From contig CANRTU010000006.1 of the NCBI GenBank assembly GCA_947642745.1, positions 1 through 64,000 on the forward strand: a stretch of DNA of 64,000 nucleotides. Reading direction: 5' to 3'. Below, piece by piece: positions 3,041-64,000 of the stretch. The position numbers and the translations under genes were made by a program. Source of the DNA: an uncultured Eubacterium sp. GTDB lineage: Bacteria > Bacillota > Clostridia > Lachnospirales > Lachnospiraceae. Under the pieces are notes generated by a model. The model saw only the letters and a list, made by a program, of their open reading frames with translations. It was not told the origin of the DNA and did not search any database. Within the stretch, counting starts at the first letter, position 1. Each line of letters starts with the position of its first letter.

Positions 3041-3136
3041 AGATAAAAAAGTATCCGGCTGCAGTTTCCTTTTCAGCGCAGGCGATCCTCCCAGAGAGTT
3101 TTACTCTATCGGACGTTCTTTCCTATAGAGTAAAAA
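3041..3136 (-). repeat. Dispersed structured repeat, family 1, copy 1
   Basis: On the minus strand an 11-bp stem TTTTACTCTAT/ATAGAGTAAAA (3099-3135) encloses the loop AGGAAAGAACGTCCG. It is followed by a GGGAGGATCGCC box, a small CTGC/GCAG stem and GCCGGATAC with a T-run at 3046-3050. Copies 2-4 in this window (8965, 16751, 55699) share the loop and boxes while the stem arms change together. Copy 1 lies in the leader of the methyltransferase gene. It may be a structured RNA or a mobile palindromic repeat; its function is unknown. Confidence 0.7.
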
Positions 3137-3166
3137 GCAGGGCTGCTCCCCGGCTGCCCTGCTTTT
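3132..3166 (-). terminator. Rho-independent terminator after glgP
   Basis: A 7-bp GC stem GCAGGGC/GCCCTGC (3137-3143 with 3156-3162) is flanked by A/T runs on both sides, so it could work in both directions. It lies 36 nt past the glgP stop codon. Its T-tail merges with the start of the family-1 repeat hairpin. Confidence 0.75.
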
Positions 3167-3201: not shown

Positions 3202-5673
3202 TTATTTTTCCACCGGCATCTCCACATGCAGTTTTCTCAGATGCCAGATATCCCGCACATATTCTTCAATCGTACGGTCAGAAGAAAACTTCCCGACATT
3301 GGCCACATTGAGTATGGCGCTCCGTGCCCAGCGGCTTTCATCTTTATAAGCCTCCATGACACGCTCCTGTGCCTGTGCGTATGCACGGAAGTCTTTCAGT
3401 ACAAAATATCTGTCCGCATACTGGGTACAGTTTGTATTCAGCAGCGAATCATACAGACTGCGGAACTGCTCTGTATCATTGTGGGAATAAAATCCGTTAA
3501 TCAGCTGCATCAGTACCTGACGGATTTCTGCGTCACTGTTAAATATTTCCATCGGATTATAATCACGGCGCTGTTCGTGTCCGATGACTTCATCTGAACT
3601 CATACCAAAGATAAAGGCATTTTCTTCGCCCATCTCTTCTACCATTTCCACATTCGCACCGTCCATCGTTCCAATTGTCAGGGCGCCATTTAACATAAAC
3701 TTCATGTTACCTGTACCTGAGGCTTCTTTGGAAGCGGTAGAAATCTGCTCAGACACATCCGCCGCCGCGAAAATCCATTCCGCATTGGATACCCGGTAAT
3801 CTTCAATAAATACAACTTTGATTTTATTATTGATACTCCGGTCATTATTAATCACGTCTGCCACGCTGTTGATTAACTTAATCGTAAGCTTTGCAGTTCT
3901 GTATCCGGCCGCTGCCTTGGCGCCAAAGATAAATGTCCGTGGAATAAATTCCATTTCCGGATGTTCTTTGATCTTGTTATACAGATACATAACATGCAGA
4001 ATGTTCATCAGCTGGCGTTTGTACTCATGCAGACGCTTCACCTGTACGTCAAAGATAGACCGTGGATCTACCTCAATTCCGTTATGTTCCAGAATATATT
4101 TTGCCAGACGCTGTTTATTCTGGTATTTTATATTCATAAATTCATGCTGCGCCTTTTCATCTGATGCGTAGATCGCAAGGCGTTTCATGTGTGAAAGATT
4201 AGTAATCCAGTCTGTGCCGATATGGGCGGTTACCCAGTCTGCCAGTAATGGATTGCCGTGGAGCAGAAATCTCCGCTGTGTGATCCCGTTTGTCTTGTTG
4301 TTGAACTTCTCCGGAAACATCTCATAGAAATCCTTTAATTCCTCATTCTTTAAGATTTCCGTATGAAGCCTTGCCACACCATTGACAGAATAACCTGCCG
4401 CAATTGCCAGATGAGCCATTTTTACCTGTCCGTCATAAATAATGGCCATTTTCTGGATTCTGTTATGATCATTTGGAAATTTAGCCTGGATCTGTAAAAT
4501 AAATCTGCGGTTAATTTCCTCAACGATCTGGTAAATTCTCGGAAGCAGTCTGGAGAAAATCTCAATCGGCCATTTTTCCAGCGCTTCCGCCATAATCGTA
4601 TGGTTGGTGTAGGCACAGGTCTTTGTGGTAATCTCCCAGGCTGTATCCCATCCCAGACCTTCCACATCCATCAGAAGACGCATCAGCTCTGCCACCGCCA
4701 GCGTCGGATGGGTATCGTTCAGCTGTACTGCCACTTTATCCGGCAGGGTGCGGATATCGTCGTGATTTTTCTTAAATTTGGATATAGCTCTCTGCAGGGA
4801 AGCAGACACAAAGAAATACTGCTGTTTTAACCTGAGCTCTTTGCCGGCGATATGATCGTCGCACGGATACAGCACGTCCACCAGGTTTCTGGCCAGATTT
4901 TCCTGCTCTACCGCTTTATGGTAATCTCCTTTGTCAAAGGAATTCAGCTCGAAGACCTCCATTGGTTCCGCATCCCAGATCATCAGCGTATTTACCATAT
5001 TGTTGTTATAACCCACAATCGGCATATCGTATGGAATCGCCTTAACAGACTGATAGCCTTCATGGACGAATCTGGTCCTGCCATCCGCATTATTTTCCGT
5101 ACGCACATAGCCGCCAAATTTTACTTCATAACTGTATTCCGGTCTGCGCAGTTCAAACGGATAACCGTCTTTCAGCCAGTTATCCGGCGCCTCAATCTGG
5201 TAGCCGTCCCGGATCTCCTGACGGAACATACCATAACGGTAACGGATTCCACAGCCATATGCCGGATAGCCAAGCGTGGTCAGGGATTCCAGAAAGCAGG
5301 CGGCAAGTCTTCCAAGGCCGCCGTTGCCCAGTGCCGGGTCTGGTTCCTGATCCTCAATCACATTTAAATCCAGTCCGATTTCTTTTAATGCCTCCATCAC
5401 TTCCTGATAAGCGGTTAAATTAATCAGGTTGTTGCCCAGCGCACGGCCCATCAGAAATTCCATCGACATATAATAAACAATCTTTGGATCTTCTTTATCA
5501 AAAGTTTTCTGGGACGCCAGCCAGTTATCTATGATTACATCCTTAACGGTATGAGCCACAGCCTGGTAAATTTCCTGCTGGCTGGCCTCATCAAGAGTCT
5601 TGCGGTACAGATTTTTTACATCGTCTTTTACACTCCTGATAAATGCCTCTTTTTCGAATATTTGATTTTTCAT
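3202..5673 (-). CDS. glgP: Glycogen/starch phosphorylase (GT35)
   Basis: This 823-residue, PLP-dependent, cytosolic enzyme releases glucose-1-phosphate from alpha-1,4-glucan. Family signatures include EDPALGNGGLGRLAAC-like sequence near residue 110 and the PLP-lysine motif EASGTGNMKFMLNGAL near residue 655. Length is typical of the family. AAGGAGG precedes the ATG. The gene starts only 20 nt after the ileS stop with no terminator visible between them, so it is probably cotranscribed with ileS and sits downstream of the ileS T-box. That linkage of a glycogen enzyme to an isoleucine sensor is unusual. A terminator follows at 3132-3166. Confidence 0.95.
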   Translation of the reverse strand: MKNQIFEKEAFIRSVKDDVKNLYRKTLDEASQQEIYQAVAHTVKDVIIDNWLASQKTFDKEDPKIVYYMSMEFLMGRALGNNLINLTAYQEVMEALKEIGLDLNVIEDQEPDPALGNGGLGRLAACFLESLTTLGYPAYGCGIRYRYGMFRQEIRDGYQIEAPDNWLKDGYPFELRRPEYSYEVKFGGYVRTENNADGRTRFVHEGYQSVKAIPYDMPIVGYNNNMVNTLMIWDAEPMEVFELNSFDKGDYHKAVEQENLARNLVDVLYPCDDHIAGKELRLKQQYFFVSASLQRAISKFKKNHDDIRTLPDKVAVQLNDTHPTLAVAELMRLLMDVEGLGWDTAWEITTKTCAYTNHTIMAEALEKWPIEIFSRLLPRIYQIVEEINRRFILQIQAKFPNDHNRIQKMAIIYDGQVKMAHLAIAAGYSVNGVARLHTEILKNEELKDFYEMFPEKFNNKTNGITQRRFLLHGNPLLADWVTAHIGTDWITNLSHMKRLAIYASDEKAQHEFMNIKYQNKQRLAKYILEHNGIEVDPRSIFDVQVKRLHEYKRQLMNILHVMYLYNKIKEHPEMEFIPRTFIFGAKAAAGYRTAKLTIKLINSVADVINNDRSINNKIKVVFIEDYRVSNAEWIFAAADVSEQISTASKEASGTGNMKFMLNGALTIGTMDGANVEMVEEMGEENAFIFGMSSDEVIGHEQRRDYNPMEIFNSDAEIRQVLMQLINGFYSHNDTEQFRSLYDSLLNTNCTQYADRYFVLKDFRAYAQAQERVMEAYKDESRWARSAILNVANVGKFSSDRTIEEYVRDIWHLRKLHVEMPVEK

Positions 5674-5693: not shown

Positions 5694-8600
5694 TTATTGC
5701 TTTTCGACACTTAGAGTTACTTTTTCACCATTGATATTCCACTCTTTGATATACCCGCAAAGTGCGTCCGCCTCCAGGCGTACGCCAAGTACATCCGACT
5801 GGATTATATTTCCATTTTTTGCGAAAATATCTGCAATCTTTTCATTTGCGGTGTAAGAAACCGCAATCTGATCCATAACCTCAAATCCAGCTTCTTTCCT
5901 CATGGTCTGGAGTTTGCTGATAATCTCCCGCACAAAACCCTCTTCCAAAAGCTCCGGTGTCAGTCTGGTATCCAGTACAACAGTAATGTTATGGTCGTTC
6001 ACTGCCATGTATCCTTCCTGCTGCGTCATCGTAATCAGCAAATCCTCTTCTGATAATACGATGTTCTCACCAATACTGTCAAGTGTGATTATACCTTTTT
6101 CCCTTAATTGTGTCATTGCGGCGTTTCCATCCAGTCCGGAAAGCGCCTGTTGAATCTGCTTTAAATATTTTCCATACTTAGGGCCTACTGTACGAAGCTG
6201 TGGTTTAAACGTATAATCTGTATAAGAGCTGACATCATCAGAAAATGTAATCTTCTTTATATTTAATTCTTCTTCAATGATTTTTACGAAATACTCTGGC
6301 AGCTCAAACGGCGCCCTCACAAATAAATTTCCCACTGGCTGACGGTTTTTAATATTTGCCGAATTACGGCAGGAGCGTCCCATAACAACGATCCGGAGCA
6401 CCTCGTCCATATTTGTCTCCAGCCCGGCATCTATCCAGGATTCATTAACTGCTGGAAAATCACACAGATGAACGCTCTCCGGCGCTGTAGCGTCAATGCC
6501 GCATACCAGATTGCGGTAAATATCCTCTGTCATAAACGGAATCAGTGGCGCGGCTGTCTTCGTAACTGTTACCAGTGCGGTATACAGCGTCATGTAAGCA
6601 TTGATCTTATCCTGCTCCATGCCCTTTGCCCAGAAACGCTCCCTGCTTCTTCTTACATACCAGTTGGACATTTCATCCACAAAGCCATCCAGTGCCCTGG
6701 CAGCTTCCGGAATCCGGTAACTGCCCAGATTTCCATCCACGGATTTTACAACTGTATTCAGCCTTGATAACAGCCATTTATCCATAACGCCCAGTTTATC
6801 ATATTCCAGCTCGTATTTTGTAGCGTCAAATTCATCAATATTAGCGTATAAAACGAAAAACGCATAGGTATTCCACAATGTGCCCAGGAATTTCCGCTGT
6901 CCTTCCAGCACGGCCTTATCATGGAAACGGTTTGGCAGCCATGGCGCACTGTTGATATAGAAGTACCAGCGGATTGCGTCCGCTCCGTATTTTTTCAGCG
7001 CTTCAAACGGATCGACAGCGTTGCCTTTGGACTTGCTCATTTTCTGTCCTTTTTCATCCTGGACATGCCCCAGCACAATGACATTTTCATACGGCGCCTG
7101 ATTAAAAAGCAGGGTAGATTCCGCCATCAGTGAATAAAACCATCCTCTGGTCTGGTCCACGCCTTCAGAAATAAATTTTGCCGGAAACTGCTGCTGGAAC
7201 AGTTCTTTATTTTCAAACGGATAATGATGCTGGGCAAACGGCATGGCCCCGGAATCAAACCAGCAGTCGATTACCTCTGGTACTCTGCGCATCGTACCGC
7301 CGCATTCCGGACAAGGTAACGTTACGTCGTCAATATATGGCCTGTGCAGCTCCACGTCCGCCGCTTCCGGCCGGCCGCTTTTTTCCGCCAGCTGCGCCCT
7401 GCTGCCAATACATTCCTGGTGTCCGCAGTCACACTCCCAGACCGGAAGCGGTGTTCCCCAGTAACGGTTACGGGATATTCCCCAGTCCTGGATATTTTCC
7501 AGCCAGTCGCCAAAGCGTCCTTTTCCAATAGAATCCGGAATCCAGTTGACTGTATTGTTATTGCGGATCAGATCATCTTTTACCGCCGTCATTTTAATAA
7601 ACCAGGATTCTCTCGCATAATAAATTAACGGTGTGTCGCATCTCCAGCAATGAGGATAATCATGTTCAAATTTCGGCGCATCAAAGAGCAGCCCTTTCTG
7701 TTCCAGATCATTCAGAATCTTAGGATCTGCTTTTTTGACAAAAATTCCCGCATATGCGGTCTCTTCTGTCATTTCGCCCTTGCTGTTGACCAGCTGTACA
7801 AACGGAAGGTCATATTTTCTGCCTACCTTTGCGTCATCTTCACCAAATGCCGGCGCTATGTGTACAATACCGGTACCGTCTGTCATGGTGACGTATTCAT
7901 CACAGGTAATATAATGCGCCTTTTTATTCTGTTTTGCTATGATATCCGCCGCAAAGTCAAACAACGGCTCATACGCTTTATGCTCCAGACCGGTACCGGA
8001 ACATGTTTCCAGCACTTCGTACGCCGCCACGCCTGCGTCTTTATCGCCCAGCCTGCCCAGAACCTGGCCCAGCAGCGCCTGCGCCATATAATAAATATAG
8101 CCGTCCGCCGCTTTTACTTTACAGTAAGTCTCCTGTGGATTCACGCACAGCGCCACATTGGACGGCAGCGTCCATGGCGTGGTGGTCCATGCCAGAAAAT
8201 ACGCCTCTTCCCCGATTACTTTAAAACGGACCACCGCAGAACGTTCCTTTACGGTTTTATAACCCTGCGCCACCTCCTGTGAGGAAAGGGGCGTACCGCA
8301 GCGTGGACAGTAAGGAACAATTTTAAAGCCTTTGTATAGCAGCTTTTTATCCCAGATCTGCTTTAACGCCCACCATTCGGACTCTATAAAATCATCTTCA
8401 TAGGTGACATAAGGTTGTTCCATATCCGCCCAGAAAGCCACCTGGTCTGACAGGTCTTCCCACATGCCTTTATACTGCCAGACAGATTCCTTACACTGTC
8501 TGATAAAAGGCTCCATGCCATATTCTTCAATCTGCTCTTTTCCATTCAGCCCCAGGTGTTTTTCCACTTCCAGTTCTACTGGCAGTCCGTGGGTATCCCA

Positions 8601-8852
8601 GCCCGCTTTGCGGGGTACGTATCTGCCTTTCATCGTCTGGTATCTCGGAATCAGATCTTTAATGGAACGTGTGAGTACATGGCCGATATGGGGTTTACCA
8701 TTGGCAGTCGGCGGTCCGTCATAGAAAGTGTATGTTTCTCCTTCTTTTCTGGAATCCAGGGATTTTTGGAAAATTCCCCGCTCTTTCCAGAAGGCCGCAA
8801 CTTTTTGCTCTCTTTCCGCAAAATTCATGTTCGTATCTACTTTGTTATACAT
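5694..8852 (-). CDS. ileS: Isoleucyl-tRNA synthetase
   Basis: This class I synthetase of 1052 residues charges tRNA-Ile. The HIGH motif (KPHIGHVLTR, near residue 55) and KMSKS motif (KMSKSKGN, near residue 600) are intact. A CxxC/CPECGG zinc-like region and an editing (CP1) domain lie between them. The length and the sequence around HIGH suggest the longer, eukaryote-like type-2 IleRS, a type often associated with mupirocin tolerance; that subtype call is inference. AAAGGAG supports the start. A T-box leader with an isoleucine specifier lies upstream (9098-9362), with a family-1 repeat between leader and gene. Confidence 0.96.
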   Translation of the reverse strand: MYNKVDTNMNFAEREQKVAAFWKERGIFQKSLDSRKEGETYTFYDGPPTANGKPHIGHVLTRSIKDLIPRYQTMKGRYVPRKAGWDTHGLPVELEVEKHLGLNGKEQIEEYGMEPFIRQCKESVWQYKGMWEDLSDQVAFWADMEQPYVTYEDDFIESEWWALKQIWDKKLLYKGFKIVPYCPRCGTPLSSQEVAQGYKTVKERSAVVRFKVIGEEAYFLAWTTTPWTLPSNVALCVNPQETYCKVKAADGYIYYMAQALLGQVLGRLGDKDAGVAAYEVLETCSGTGLEHKAYEPLFDFAADIIAKQNKKAHYITCDEYVTMTDGTGIVHIAPAFGEDDAKVGRKYDLPFVQLVNSKGEMTEETAYAGIFVKKADPKILNDLEQKGLLFDAPKFEHDYPHCWRCDTPLIYYARESWFIKMTAVKDDLIRNNNTVNWIPDSIGKGRFGDWLENIQDWGISRNRYWGTPLPVWECDCGHQECIGSRAQLAEKSGRPEAADVELHRPYIDDVTLPCPECGGTMRRVPEVIDCWFDSGAMPFAQHHYPFENKELFQQQFPAKFISEGVDQTRGWFYSLMAESTLLFNQAPYENVIVLGHVQDEKGQKMSKSKGNAVDPFEALKKYGADAIRWYFYINSAPWLPNRFHDKAVLEGQRKFLGTLWNTYAFFVLYANIDEFDATKYELEYDKLGVMDKWLLSRLNTVVKSVDGNLGSYRIPEAARALDGFVDEMSNWYVRRSRERFWAKGMEQDKINAYMTLYTALVTVTKTAAPLIPFMTEDIYRNLVCGIDATAPESVHLCDFPAVNESWIDAGLETNMDEVLRIVVMGRSCRNSANIKNRQPVGNLFVRAPFELPEYFVKIIEEELNIKKITFSDDVSSYTDYTFKPQLRTVGPKYGKYLKQIQQALSGLDGNAAMTQLREKGIITLDSIGENIVLSEEDLLITMTQQEGYMAVNDHNITVVLDTRLTPELLEEGFVREIISKLQTMRKEAGFEVMDQIAVSYTANEKIADIFAKNGNIIQSDVLGVRLEADALCGYIKEWNINGEKVTLSVEKQ

Positions 8853-8964: not shown

Positions 8965-9098
8965 TAAAAAAATATCCGGCAAAGCCGGATACTCCGCCTG
9001 CGGCGGGCTGCCCCCGGCAGCATCTTCCTCTCCGCCGCAGGGCGATCCTGCCCGGAGGACTTTTATCTTACAGGACGCTCTTTCCTATAAGATAAAAA
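8965..9098 (-). repeat. Dispersed structured repeat, family 1, copy 2, ending in a terminator-like hairpin
   Basis: On the minus strand the hairpin TTTTATCTTA/TAAGATAAAA (9061-9097) carries the loop TAGGAAAGAGCGTCC. It is followed by CCGGGCAGGATCGCC, a CTGCGGCGG/CCGCCGCAG stem, and ATCCGGC-TTT-GCCGGAT with seven T residues (8966-8990). That last hairpin is a convincing intrinsic terminator between the T-box and ileS. The copy begins inside the T-run of the T-box terminator. Confidence 0.75.
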
Positions 9099-9362
9099 AA
9101 CCCCGTCCTGTTATAGGACGGGGTCTGACCCGCTTTTATACCACCTGTAACACGATACTTATGGCACAACGCCATGCATATCTGTTCCCTGTAACGCAGG
9201 AAATACGTCAGTGCTTACTGGCCTCCGGATAACTCCAGACTGCTGTTTTTCCGGAAACTGTTCAGACTGCTGCTCAGAAGTGATCTTCAGAAATTCCGTG
9301 ACTCATACCGGCTTTCACCCTCCCGGCTCGCTGTCATTTTTGCGGAACTCTTACTGTCTTCG
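9098..9362 (-). promoter_or_regulatory. T-box leader of ileS, isoleucine specifier
   Basis: Read on the minus strand, the leader starts near GACAGTAAGAG. An ATC specifier triplet (plus-strand 9282-9284) sits in the Stem I context TGAAGATCACTTCTGAG. The T-box sequence AGGTGGTATAAAAGCGGGTC (about 9127-9147) follows. A terminator stem CCCCGTCC/GGACGGGG with a T-run (9098-9123) closes it. This matches the tRNA-Ile-sensing T-box family, in which uncharged tRNA stabilises the antiterminator. Exact Stem I limits are approximate. Confidence 0.88.
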
Positions 9363-9392
9363 TCAATGCATTTAATTATTAATAGCAAGCAT

Positions 9393-16724: not shown

Positions 16725-16727
16725 TGA

Positions 16728-16970
16728 TTACTCCTCCTGTTTTGTCAGTCGTATCCGCAGGACCGGCTCCGGCGCTTTTCCGTCCCGGCACAGGCGTCCC
16801 CCGGATAGTTTCATCCTCTGGGAAATACAGTTTCCTACAGGATGAAAAAGGGGCTGCCGGAAAAGCACTGTCCCTGACAGGACAGCCTCTCTGGCAGCTT
16901 CAGCCAGTGTACTGTCTGAAACTGTCAGTTCCCGATAACCCCTTTCATACGTTATCAGCTGCCTTTTCAT
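16728..16970 (-). CDS. Possible 80-residue ORF spanning a family-1 repeat
   Basis: This small ORF ends 3 nt before the ATP-grasp start codon and contains that gene's AGGAGG, which is typical of translational coupling. Its C-terminal half is encoded by repeat copy 3, which happens to lack stop codons in this frame. The ribosome site (AAAGGTAGGG) is poor and no domain is recognised. It may be a real leader peptide or chance; I lean slightly to chance. Confidence 0.3.
   Translation of the reverse strand: MKRQLITYERGYRELTVSDSTLAEAAREAVLSGTVLFRQPLFHPVGNCISQRMKLSGGRLCRDGKAPEPVLRIRLTKQEE
16751..16848 (-). repeat. Dispersed structured repeat, family 1, copy 3
   Basis: On the minus strand TTTCATCCT/AGGATGAAA (16839-16847 with 16809-16817) encloses a loop starting GTAGGAAACTG. 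It is followed by CCGGGGGACGCCTG and a GC-rich hairpin ending GCGGATAC, the same order of boxes as copies 1 and 2. Arms differ from other copies but still pair. Confidence 0.6.
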
Positions 16971-55530: not shown

Positions 55531-55698
55531 CTGTTATCATTCCTTTCCAGGCTGTACACCGGTTCTTTCTTAAATTTTGGATATTTTGTATTTGCCAGTA
55601 ATTTAAATTTTGCCAGAAATATAATGTACCGGCAAAACTGCATCTGACAGCATTTCCAAACATGAGAAAGAACCTGTGTACCTTCTGTTATCCCTTTA

Positions 55699-55775
55699 TT
55701 ATCTTATAGGAAAGTGCGTGAAATCTGATAAAAAGCACTGCGGGCAGGATCGCAGGGTCTGCCCTGTTTTACCGG
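55699..55775 (+). repeat. Dispersed structured repeat, family 1, copy 4
   Basis: On the plus strand TTATCTTATAGGAAAGTGCG is followed by a partly paired arm (ATCTGATAA) and the box GCGGGCAGGATCGCAGG. This is the same order as the minus-strand copies. It is oriented against the surrounding operon, so it would be transcribed as its complement there. Confidence 0.6.
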
Positions 55776-58000: not shown

Positions 58001-59086
58001 TTATCTTTGTTTCTTTACTTTCTGCGTTTTTGTAATCTTTCCACTCTTGTCGCAATAATACCTCTTATTGCCAACAGTTACCCATTTGTTTGTAACAATA
58101 ACGCCGGACTTATTCGTATAATATTTCTTGCCCTTTACGTTCACTACTTTATTTGTGACAATAACGCCATTTTTGTTTGCATACAGCTTCTTTCCATTGG
58201 CGTTTGTAACCATCTGGTTCGTTGCGATTGCGCCGGACGCCTTTGCAAAATATTTCTTGCCATTTACACTTACTACTTTATTTGTAACAATGACACCATT
58301 TTTGTTTGCATACAGCTTCTTTCCATTTGCGTTTGTAACCATCTGGTTTGTTGCGATTGCGCCGGACGCCTTTGCAAAATATTTCTTGCCGCCTACGCTG
58401 ATCGTCTTGTTCGTAATAATCGAACCATCTGCAGAGGCATACATCTTAACGCCTTTTTCGTTCGTGACAAATTCCTGTTTTGCAATGGTGCCGTCTTCTT
58501 TGGCATAATATTTCCTGCCATCTACTGTAACAGTCTTATCCGCGACAATCCTGCCATTCTCGTCAGCATATACCAGATTGCCGTCTGCCGTCGTACATAA
58601 CTCGTTGCCTGCCCTTGTGCCGTCTTCTTTTACCGCAATCTTTTCACCGTTTTCTTCTTTGATTTCAACCGATGGTTTTTCCTCTTCCTGCCCCGGTGTC
58701 GTCGGCGTTGTTGTACTATCATCTCCCGTCGGCGTGGTTGGCGTTGTCGTACTGTCGTCTCCCGTCGGTGTCGTTGGCGTTGTCGTGCCGCCTCCCGACG
58801 GTGTCGTCGGCGTCGTCGTGCTGGCTGTTGGTTTAGTTGGTGTTGTCGGGTTTGTTACGTTTGATGAACCTCCTGAAGAGCCGCCTGAATTTGATGAGCC
58901 GCCCGAGCCTGTTGGTGGTGTCGTCGGCTTCTGGTTCGAACTGCCCTGATCACTCCCTCCACTCGCAAGGGAAATCCGTGCTGTTTCCTGGCCTGTAGAC
59001 GCTGCGGATACTGCAAAAGTACCGCCTGACAGACACAGGGTCAGTGCAACCACAATCCCTTTTTTTGTCAACCAATTACGTTTCAT
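58001..59086 (-). CDS. Secreted cell-wall protein with Ser/Thr/Pro linker and tandem aromatic repeats
   Basis: This 361-residue protein has a signal peptide ending near FAVSAAS. A low-complexity linker rich in TTPTTP and GGSSN units follows (about 40-140). The C-terminus has about eight 20-residue repeats of the type GKKYFAKASGAIATN, similar in design to choline/cell-wall-binding repeats. Two 43-residue blocks are almost identical at the DNA level, showing recent tandem duplication. It probably binds surface glycan. It is first in line behind the shared promoter at 59235-59280, separated from rfbF by a hairpin. Confidence 0.83.
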   Translation of the reverse strand: MKRNWLTKKGIVVALTLCLSGGTFAVSAASTGQETARISLASGGSDQGSSNQKPTTPPTGSGGSSNSGGSSGGSSNVTNPTTPTKPTASTTTPTTPSGGGTTTPTTPTGDDSTTTPTTPTGDDSTTTPTTPGQEEEKPSVEIKEENGEKIAVKEDGTRAGNELCTTADGNLVYADENGRIVADKTVTVDGRKYYAKEDGTIAKQEFVTNEKGVKMYASADGSIITNKTISVGGKKYFAKASGAIATNQMVTNANGKKLYANKNGVIVTNKVVSVNGKKYFAKASGAIATNQMVTNANGKKLYANKNGVIVTNKVVNVKGKKYYTNKSGVIVTNKWVTVGNKRYYCDKSGKITKTQKVKKQR

Positions 59087-59280: not shown

Positions 59281-59570
59281 ATGCGATTTTCTATTGGTCA
59301 TGATTTATTTCAGACTGATAAAAAGGATACTAAGGGAATTTATAGGATGATAAACCCGAATTTCAGATTCATAACAAAACGGACATCTGACAGTCCGGGA
59401 ATCAGGAAACTGCCCGCCGTCAGGAGCCTGCGGACCGGGTACGCCCGGCTGTTGGAAGAAAAGAAAAAATTACTCTGGGTACAGGCGCTCCTGCCTCTGT
59501 CTGCAAAAACAAAGCTGCCTGTTAACAATTTTTCCATGTTAACAGGCAGCTTTGTTTTTAATAATATATT
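59281..59570. other. Intergenic stretch with a doubtful ORF and a long bidirectional terminator hairpin
   Basis: A 107-codon plus-strand ORF (59281-59604) lacks a ribosome site and any recognisable domain, and it runs through a hairpin, so I do not call it. The hairpin is a perfect 17-bp stem, AAAGCTGCCTGTTAACA paired with its complement (59511-59527 and 59537-59553). Poly-T/poly-A flanks suit termination from both sides. Confidence 0.6.
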
Positions 59571-59830
59571 AGCGGAACATCTTAATGTACTAATGTTCCG
59601 CTGACAAATGCATTCCTTATACTATTTTCATACATTCCGGAAATTCTCAAACATCTCATACAGATCCAGCTGCCCCCACCCCGATTGGGTCAGGTTAACG
59701 TCATAAAACATTTTCAGTTTTTTTGTGAAAATCGCTGTAACCTGCATAACTTCATTGGGGTTTAGGTAAATTAATGCTAAATTAGCAAAACATTGGTGTT
59801 AAATTACAAACATTCGTTCTGCAATAGCAC
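59571..59830 (-). pseudogene. Decayed 3' end of an S8 peptidase gene plus its terminator, copy 1
   Basis: On the minus strand the frame reads SGWGQLDLYEMFENFRNV and stop, nearly identical to the C-terminus of the intact peptidase at 62495. Upstream the frame (NEVMQVTAIFTKKLKMF) has no protease domain. A hairpin AGCGGAACAT/ATGTTCCGCT (59571-59602) follows the stop. The whole block is repeated at 62101-62360. Confidence 0.7.
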
Positions 59831-62100: not shown

Positions 62101-62360
62101 AGCGGAACATCCTCATTACACGAATGTCCCGCTAAAACATTTTCTAACTACACAAACTCATTCATTTCAAAAATTCTCAAACATCTTATACAGATCCAGC
62201 TATCTCCAGCCCGATTGAGTCAGGTTAATGTCACAAAAAATTTGAGGCTTTTTTCTGCGAAAATCGCTGTAACCCGCATAACTTCGTTGGAGTTGAGGTA
62301 AATTAATGCTAAATCAGCGAAAAAATGGTGGTAAATTAATGTCACAAACAGTTGTTCCTC
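62101..62360 (-). pseudogene. Decayed 3' end of an S8 peptidase gene plus its terminator, copy 2
   Basis: On the minus strand it aligns over its length to 59571-59830. The frame NEVMRVTAIFAEKSLKFF runs to a stop, and the next frame reads LTQSGWR, stop, LDLYKMFENF. The hairpin AGCGGAACAT/AATGTCCCGCT (62101-62133) is imperfect. It is more decayed than copy 1. The 61934-62116 ORF shown in the track is not recognised. Confidence 0.65.
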
Positions 62361-62494: not shown

Positions 62495-64000
62495 TCACAC
62501 ATTCCGGAAATTCTCAAACGTCTTATACAGATCCAGCTGCCCCCACCCCCATTCCCTGTTGGGATACGTCCGGAAATCATCTCTTGCGGCGCCACGGATT
62601 AAATAATTTTTGATCGTTACCGACGTAGCTGAAATATCATTGCGCCGTACGCCGGTCCATTCCAGCATCAGGGCGCCTGCGCCTGCCGTAATGGCTGCCG
62701 CTATGCTGGTGCCGCTGCGGGTACCGTACTGCCCGTTACCAGCCGGGCCTGAGACATCCACGGCTGGCGCCGCAAAGTCCGGTTTGATATTTCCGTTAAC
62801 GGCAAACCCACGGCCGGATTCAGCGTAAATGCTGTCATCCTTTGTGTTATAGCCTCCCACCGTAATCGGCTGTTCCGAGTCAGAAGGCACCGTAATCGTA
62901 GTATCCGGATTAGAACGCAGAAAAATCACTTCACCGGATACCATTTCAGACATAGGCAGCCAGATATGATAGCGTCCCTCCGCATAATTGCGTACATGTA
63001 CAATCAGTACCCATATTCCGGCGGCCGGCCTGTCAAACCGGATGCTCACCAGTTCATTGCTGTTAAACGCGCCTACGAGACGATAATCTACAGATACCAT
63101 CGTCCCCTCAAATAAAAAACGATACTCCGTGTGCTGAAATGGCGTGGAGGGCCGTGCGTTGAACCGTTCTCCGGTAGGAGACAGCACCGATATTTCATAC
63201 AGTTCCGGAGCCTGTGCCCATAGCTCTGCAATAAAGCCACTGACCCCTTCCGCAACGCTGATTTCCACCCGTTCTTCTTCGTTCTGCCCACGGACTCCGC
63301 CCAGAAAATGATGCCTTTTGTCCGCTTCATTGCCAGCCGCTATAACCACGCAGCGCTGCCTTCTGCTGGCCACCGTGGCCAGCGTGCCGGAGATCAGATT
63401 AGTTCCGCTGCGGTTGCCCATATTTGTTCCCAGCGCAATACAAAGCGCCAGGGGTTTACGCAATTTAATAGCCAGCAGATTCAGGTAATGGATGCCTGCC
63501 ATAATATCATTTTCCTGGAAGACCCTGGCCTGTTCCGGAATAAAATAATAATCCTTCAGATACTGCTTCGCACTTTTTAGTTGTACAAACGCTATATCGC
63601 AGCTGGGTGCCGCTCCGCTAAACTGGTTTGTATAATCCTGTGATCCTGCCGCCAGCGCTGCCAGAAATGTGCCGTGGCCACTTACATGTGAAATTCTTCT
63701 CTCCGTCTCATCTGCCAGCAGTTCCGCATTGATCTGCTCCCTCGTATATTCCGTTCCATAAATAAAGTCCAGAGGCGGCAGTCCGCTCCGGTCCTGCTGG
63801 TTCCAGATCGCTTCAATTCTGGTCGTCCCGTCCGAATGGCAGAACAGCGGATTCGTAAAATCAAAATCTGTGTCTATAAATCCCACCAGCACTCCCTCTC
63901 CTGTCAGCGCCAGGTTCGTCTGGTCCCTGACTTTCAGAATGCCGCTTTGTTCCAGCGCAATGTTATCCAGAAGTCCAAAACACTTGGGAACGGAGCCATA
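62495..64000 (-). CDS. S8 family serine peptidase, CspC-like, 5' end outside the window
   Basis: This subtilisin-type peptidase has an intact triad: Asp in VGFIDTDFDF, His in SGHGTFLAAL and Ser in GTSIAAAITAG, with the oxyanion Asn in IAAGNEAD. A beta-rich insertion (about 230-340 of the ORF) separates His and Ser regions, as in Clostridiales Csp-like proteases. The track starts at an internal GTG. The frame is open to base 64000 (YGSVPKCFGLLD, then LTGEGVLVGF), so the true start lies beyond the window. No signal peptide can be judged. It is the intact relative of the two 3' remnants nearby. Confidence 0.9.
   Translation of the reverse strand, partial: YGSVPKCFGLLDNIALEQSGILKVRDQTNLALTGEGVLVGFIDTDFDFTNPLFCHSDGTTRIEAIWNQQDRSGLPPLDFIYGTEYTREQINAELLADETERRISHVSGHGTFLAALAAGSQDYTNQFSGAAPSCDIAFVQLKSAKQYLKDYYFIPEQARVFQENDIMAGIHYLNLLAIKLRKPLALCIALGTNMGNRSGTNLISGTLATVASRRQRCVVIAAGNEADKRHHFLGGVRGQNEEERVEISVAEGVSGFIAELWAQAPELYEISVLSPTGERFNARPSTPFQHTEYRFLFEGTMVSVDYRLVGAFNSNELVSIRFDRPAAGIWVLIVHVRNYAEGRYHIWLPMSEMVSGEVIFLRSNPDTTITVPSDSEQPITVGGYNTKDDSIYAESGRGFAVNGNIKPDFAAPAVDVSGPAGNGQYGTRSGTSIAAAITAGAGALMLEWTGVRRNDISATSVTIKNYLIRGAARDDFRTYPNREWGWGQLDLYKTFENFRNV

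Follow-up and report, generated by a model that had tools for sequence, protein, structure and literature searches.

The window analysed here, i.e. the whole stretch of 64,000 nucleotides, belongs to a 4.1 Mb draft genome of an uncultured gut bacterium, a Eubacterium sp. of the family Lachnospiraceae. On its minus strand an IleRS-like gene (ileS, 5694-8852) is preceded by a T-box leader (9111-9375, 61.5 bits, E 7e-13, below the gathering score), upstream of which lies a promoter-like site TTGACA-17-TATACT (9421-9393, minus strand), the sole one on that strand in the scanned region. The leader ends in a terminator hairpin ACCCCGTCCTATAACAGGACGGGGT (9100..9124, minus strand; terminator scan), which is conserved in the two congeners G001 and G011. 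Both of them lack the repeat that is found in the window at this place. Between the T-box leader with its terminator and the coding region of ileS there is a full-length copy of this repeat, termed copy A, with a covariance-model span of 8966..9099 on the minus strand (152 bits and E 1.8e-35 for model R1, 134 bits for the broader model R2). Positions 9094-9099 of this span are the T-run of the host terminator, the hairpin of which is the target of the copy. A second copy, copy B (3045..3137, minus strand; R1 56 bits, E 5e-12), and the host terminator hairpin before it, recognised in the sequence as GCAGGGCAGCCGGGGAGCAGCCCTGC (3137..3162, minus strand), are located downstream of a gene encoding a carbohydrate phosphorylase (3202-5673, minus strand; Pfam). 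Copy B is internally deleted and comprises H1, H2, a partial H3 and a short GCCGGATAC + T6 end.

Read along the minus strand, copy A begins with H1, the left-end palindrome ATCTTATAGGAAAGAGCGTCCTGTAAGAT (9065..9093, placed by the fold of a closely related copy and by alignment), followed by AAAA (9061-9064), which can pair with the T-run of the host terminator. The aligned H2 box GTCCTCCGGGCAGGATCGC (9042..9060) leads to H3 (8999..9039; alignments and pair counts), in which the arms TGCGGCG..CGCCGCA enclose a further, inner hairpin as well as an internal loop rich in purines. At the right end (8966..8995) the terminator scan detected a terminator-like structure composed of a GGAG foot, the hairpin TATCCGGCTTTGCCGGATA and T7. 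The same architecture is seen at the right end of other copies.

In sequence, this right end fits a hairpin + T-run intrinsic terminator, as predicted by the terminator scan, and the promoter scan revealed no promoter-like site before copy A besides that of the T-box leader itself. Since an intact copy lies between the T-box of ileS and ileS, transcription must be able to pass through it or else start from another promoter. Copies following a T-box terminator upstream of an apparent valS gene were detected in different genera, too (L028, L218 and L143); the T-box reached the gathering score in L028 and L143, valS was assigned by visual inspection of the beginning of the reading frame, and the copy of L218 keeps an intact right-end hairpin and T-run. 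Genes encoding aminoacyl-tRNA synthetases are normally essential. If this applies to the genes concerned, transcription at the ileS and valS sites must leak through the right-end hairpin or bypass it.

A preliminary description of this DNA, made from its letters, had proposed a family of four hairpin copies in the window. The repeat is real and two of these copies, A and B, are certain: their arms had been quoted correctly, and the TAGGAAAG loop as well as the GCCGGATA + T-run ends are present in both. According to the covariance-model scores, the remaining two are one remnant and one doubtful copy. The remnant (55695..55771, plus strand, recognisable to about 55790; R1 14 bits, R2 17 bits, E 0.03-0.06) is degenerate and truncated and contains an imperfect H1, H2 and the beginning of an extra-hairpin subtype. 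Its GGGCAGGATCGCAGGGTCTGCCC string recurs exactly in another copy of the genome (L048). At 16726..16849 (minus strand; R1 15.9 bits, E 0.025; R2 21 bits, E 0.005) an H1-like palindrome follows CCCCTTTTT. This copy is doubtful because the core and its GGATCGC box are absent and because it is located within an 80-aa ORF (16728-16970) ending 3 nt before a RimK-like gene.

Further repeats of other kinds occur in the window. Four direct repeats of 129 bp (58077-58592) and four repeats of 33-36 bp (58694-58834) are located within or beside the ORF 58001-59086 (minus strand). A stretch of about 180 nt is present at 59628-59806 and 62158-62338 (82-88% identity), and a third, partial copy of it (62495-62594) starts at the end of the ORF 62495-63892 (minus strand). 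At 59505-59559 two perfectly complementary arms of 23 nt enclose a loop of 9 nt (AAAAACAAAGCTGCCTGTTAACA), an inverted repeat that resembles a bidirectional terminator.

The general anatomy of the unit was derived from 66 copies of the genome, each read on its own strand. The unit is non-coding and about 126 nt long. It opens with the palindrome H1 and an A-run, continues with the small box H2 and the long hairpin H3, and closes with a terminator-like hairpin and T-run, in fixed order. H1 (for example the palindrome ATCTTATAGGA..TCCTATAAGAT) stands immediately 3' of the host terminator's T-run, with which the A-run following H1 is able to pair. H2 reads CCCTCCGGGAGGATCGC. H3, the most conserved core of the repeat as judged from alignments and pair counts, reads TGCGGCGG..AGGAAAAT, a hairpin and CCGCCGCA, and is followed by GGCGGAG, a hairpin such as TATCCGGC..GCCGGATA and a T-run, so that every intact unit terminates in a hairpin and T-run of its own. 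GGAG or CGAG, not the GTAG type of tetranucleotide found at the 5' foot of REP palindromes, precedes the right hairpin in most copies, H1 having a T-run instead. Some units are arranged head to tail in tandem with a spacing of 125-128 bp. Folded as a single strand, one copy greatly exceeded shuffled sequences in stability (z -6.2 as RNA, -8.3 as DNA).

The string TAGGAAAGNNCGT occurs 66 times in the genome of the window compared to 3 times for the reversed control, and a strict pattern gave 43 matches. With the covariance model at least 149 copies with E<1e-8 were counted; 150 candidates were scored, and this copy number is therefore a lower bound. The strict pattern had no match in 60 relatives, including 12 congeners. 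Using the covariance model, one weak match each was found in two congeners, and other genera of the Lachnospiraceae are carriers, some of them with dozens of copies (e.g. 42 in G015, 39 in G027 and 46 in G061). By means of R2, with at most 8 candidates scored per genome, the repeat was detected in 192 of 396 Lachnospiraceae genomes and in 163 of 317 genera, its distribution being patchy; Diplocloster, Eisenbergiella and Anaerostipes are among the named carriers (MAGs or isolates). Outside the family but within the same order, 2 of 24 genomes showed one weak match each. A search of plasmids revealed one Roseburia plasmid carrying the repeat. Viral contigs contained no repeat by exact pattern, and matches in a phage collection were confined to faecal scaffolds labelled 'Bacteriophage sp.', which lack annotation and whose nature is uncertain.

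The preliminary description had named a match to a described repeat or RNA family as evidence against it, and no described family was found in Rfam: there was no match over the window at the gathering score, and at an E-value threshold nothing convincing appeared over the copies, only hairpin-like miRNA noise. Group II intron RNA had no match in Rfam either. In the surroundings of one copy (L105:1406-1501, minus strand) a sub-threshold match of the Clostridiales-1 RNA (RF01699, 33 bits) lies directly after the repeat. This RNA was rejected as the identity of the repeat, for only the final base of the copy is touched by the match, which otherwise lies outside it, the repeat itself being unmatched. 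No description of the repeat was found in the literature searched. It is abundant, real and apparently undescribed.

The copies are located directly 3' of intrinsic terminator T-runs in a fixed orientation. Of 66 copies, 83% are preceded by a hairpin below -8 kcal/mol; among 314 intergenic T5 runs taken as control the proportion was 17.5% (p=3e-23). The upstream gene is on the same strand in 48 of 61 copies. The site orthologous to that of copy B is empty in several congeners, the terminator being present and the repeat absent. Lineage-specific insertions at terminators and empty orthologous sites in congeners support the palindromic mobile element that had been among the options of the preliminary description. 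No clearly shared flanks were seen in the listed flanks of the best 15 copies each of G027 and G061, two species of one genus.

One insertion between these two species was resolved to the base. The empty site of G027 reads ..GTCCGAAAAATTTTTCATATAAC.. (AAATTTTTCATATAAC), the filled one of G061 ..GAAATTTTT, the element ending CTCTTTTT, and CATATAAC.. (AAATTTTTCATATAAC being changed to AAATTTTT, the element ending CTCTTTTT, and CATATAAC). At this one site insertion took place after T5 without target duplication except possibly that of T5 itself, low-complexity T-runs hiding the exact cut points. Terminator targeting is strong but not absolute, since the hairpin at this T5 run is only weak and the site lies between a promoter-like sequence and the start of a coding region. 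If the right T-run were a duplication of the target T-run, this could fit cut-and-paste transposition. Such a duplication is not favoured, imperfect left T-runs having no mirror on the right. At the site of L142 a decayed copy is present at the same place in G027, indicating that some insertions are old or recurrent.

An H1-like GGAAA follows the right T-run in 18 of 41 cases in the own genome (including true tandems) and in 22 of 60 cases elsewhere, compared to 5.9% of control T-runs. This excess points to what is left of former tandem copies, or to several insertions at one terminator. Cores without H1 were considered as an interrupted longer autonomous form; on inspection they proved to be decayed or truncated copies, some of them directly after stop codons.

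Other mobile elements were observed next to copies in the window's genome (G000). The 5' end of a group IIC-like intron (GTGCGCCCAGTATGGGCGCAATCT.., GTGCGCCC) begins directly after the TTTTTTAC T-run of the copy L045 (G000:C44), and the contig also carries a gene encoding a group II maturase. Furthermore, the two right ends of IS200-like elements found in this genome (CCACCGGCTAAGCCGGTGGTTCTGA; L043 and L065, at the ends of G000:C41 and C107) each border a repeat copy on its left side. The kind of site occupied by these IS200-like ends and by the group IIC-like intron end is the one used by the repeat.

The arms of H1 differ between genomes yet stay complementary. In alignments across genera, both-sided changes were found at 33 of 34 pairs (A2) and at 34 of 34 pairs (A3), with 94-95% of the cells paired in both, and these pair counts lean towards the structure, to which A2 and A3 were fitted. 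The covariation score was 0.29 in A2 (0.12 shuffled) and 0.42 in A3 (0.16 shuffled), slid controls giving 0.07 at most. The covariation reported in the preliminary description is accordingly real, being above shuffled and slid controls. It does not demonstrate selection on an RNA, because G-T pairs do not outnumber A-C mismatches and because arm-to-arm copying within palindromes is a known alternative source of compensatory change. An RNA helix under selection should favour G-U. At paired positions, the poorly aligned helix 2 being omitted, we counted 55 G-T versus 57 A-C mismatches in A2 and 35 versus 34 in A3. The own-genome alignment alone, likewise without helix 2, showed 17 G-T versus 5 A-C, partly due to one shared variant. 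For tRNAs from the same loci the values were 34 and 0, in a control biased by the preference of the tRNA finder for paired stems. There is no RNA wobble signature in the repeat, G-T and A-C being equally rare, and this points to DNA hairpins. Equal counts are compatible with DNA hairpins as well as with the decay of single copies and with copying from arm to arm.

No mobilising enzyme common to all carriers was found in searches for Y1 transposases and group II maturases, carried out in draft genomes in which absence is not proof. Y1_Tnp had no match in G014 (7 copies) and G023 (24 copies), and the draft genome of the window contains merely a broken fragment of it and no intact gene. G027 and G061 each have one copy of it, which is RAYT-like, and in G015 it is IS200-like; RAYT-like genes are present in G022 and G016, too. 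A group II maturase was detected neither in G027 nor in G061, drafts of 99% completeness with about 40 copies each. Both enzymes were dismissed as universal mobilisers, as each is absent from some carriers. The RAYT-like gene is syntenic in G061 (L291, contig C3) and G027 (L292, contig C46) and has spaced GGACATGTCC palindromes on both flanks, which are probably its own REP family. No copy of the repeat was detected within the 1.5 kb examined around these two loci, and owing to both observations RAYT was rejected as mobiliser. An autonomous relative with the same ends as the repeat was not seen, and the right end of the resident IS200-like element is unrelated in sequence to that of the repeat.

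The element is dispersed, partly tandem and lineage-specific, it stands directly 3' of terminator T-runs in fixed orientation and its arms change in a complementary manner. We consider it probable (about 0.6) that the hairpins are copies of a non-autonomous mobile element of the Lachnospiraceae, about 126 nt in length, which inserts 3' of terminators. Such an element probably moves as a folded single strand, most likely ssDNA, with H1 as the left end beside the T-run and the terminator-like hairpin as the right end beside a second T-run. The A-run of H1 would pair with the target T-run, where an enzyme acting in trans would cut and join. As each copy ends in a hairpin and T-run, it would itself offer a further target, and the tandem arrays would be accounted for in this way.

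Mobility at the DNA level is the best supported reading, and has to be weighed against a functional RNA class, e.g. a 3'-UTR small RNA or a regulatory element downstream of terminators, whose selection would have caused the covariation. The strong covariation across the whole structure, the very stable fold as RNA (z -6.2) and a unit ending like an intrinsic terminator would all be expected from such an RNA. We regard it as quite improbable, given that G-T is no commoner than A-C, unlike in the tRNAs of the (biased) control, that the copies stand behind a terminator and the best one, inside a T-box leader region, has no promoter-like site of its own, and that presence is patchy and lineage-specific with many copies truncated. 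The small-RNA class suggested in the preliminary description is likewise unsupported. Quasipalindrome template switching between arms is a mechanism known to yield compensatory change (PMC8794818). The right arm of the repeat mirrors peculiarities of the host flank in L003 (TTTTTAATC with GATTAAAAA), L127, L142, L144, L100 and L038, in the last of which the palindrome extends into the host terminator. This mirroring would be explained by template switching between the arms or by rebuilding of an arm at insertion. Template switching concerns the cause of the covariation and can be compatible with mobility. That it, and not selection, mainly keeps the arms perfect in an otherwise inert element appears unlikely to us, for conservation of the H3 core across genera and amplification require more than arm repair, and in a shuffle test within the own genome arm matching exceeded the shuffles at some positions only.

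A narrower form of the preferred DNA-level reading is a REP-like or IS200/IS605-derived ssDNA element moved by a Y1 (HUH) transposase such as RAYT. TnpAREP is a candidate mobiliser of REP elements (PMC8266576). Like the repeat, the elements of such REPtrons are high-copy, extragenic, palindromic and non-autonomous and are thought to move as ssDNA; the GGAG-like foot at the right hairpin of the repeat may correspond to the GTAG-type foot of their palindromes. Non-autonomous IS200/IS605 derivatives share with it hairpins near both ends, a T-rich flank resembling a cleavage site, a strand-specific orientation and insertion 3' of a short T-rich target without clear duplication (at one base-resolved site with an ambiguous T-run), and RAYT-like genes exist in four of the genomes mentioned above (G027, G061, G022 and G016). 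Unlike REP elements, the repeat measures about 126 nt, has a conserved multi-hairpin core in fixed order, follows terminators and has no RAYT adjoining its copies or in every carrier; the RAYT loci of G027 and G061 have palindromes of their own. Unlike IS200/IS605 derivatives, it has two palindromes of unlike sequence and ends differing from those of the resident IS200-like element, and no transposase was found in every carrier (none in G014 and G023, a broken fragment in G000). We therefore treat this form as possible but doubtful. Group IIC introns also have intrinsic terminators as their target, behind which they insert immediately and in one orientation (PMC4424553). The preference of the repeat for a hairpin + T-run and the intron-like 5' end behind the copy L045, on a contig with a maturase gene, would suit a passenger retroelement moved by their machinery. 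The repeat, however, has neither a ribozyme match in Rfam nor an encoded protein, and the maturase is absent from G027 and G061 despite their many copies, making such a passenger very improbable. With MITEs and MITE-like repeats such as BOX and RUP the repeat has in common that it is short, non-coding, high-copy and dispersed; it differs from MITEs in lacking long terminal inverted repeats, its ends being two unlike palindromes, and in having no duplication beyond a possible T5. A more far-reaching proposal, family-wide terminator-homing hairpin elements whose A-run recognises the target T-run, with one arm rebuilt from the target and an enzyme unrelated to Y1 and group II RT, is speculative and to our judgement not likely.

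About half of the sampled Lachnospiraceae genomes carry the repeat, yet there is neither an Rfam model nor a description in the literature searched. The combination of strong compensatory covariation with the lack of a wobble signature calls for caution, covariation alone not being proof of a functional RNA. The repeat causes breaks in assemblies and places additional hairpins behind many genes, among them attenuators of aminoacyl-tRNA synthetase genes. If the preferred reading of a mobile element is true, terminators would serve as safe landing sites not only for group IIC introns but also for a second type of small element.
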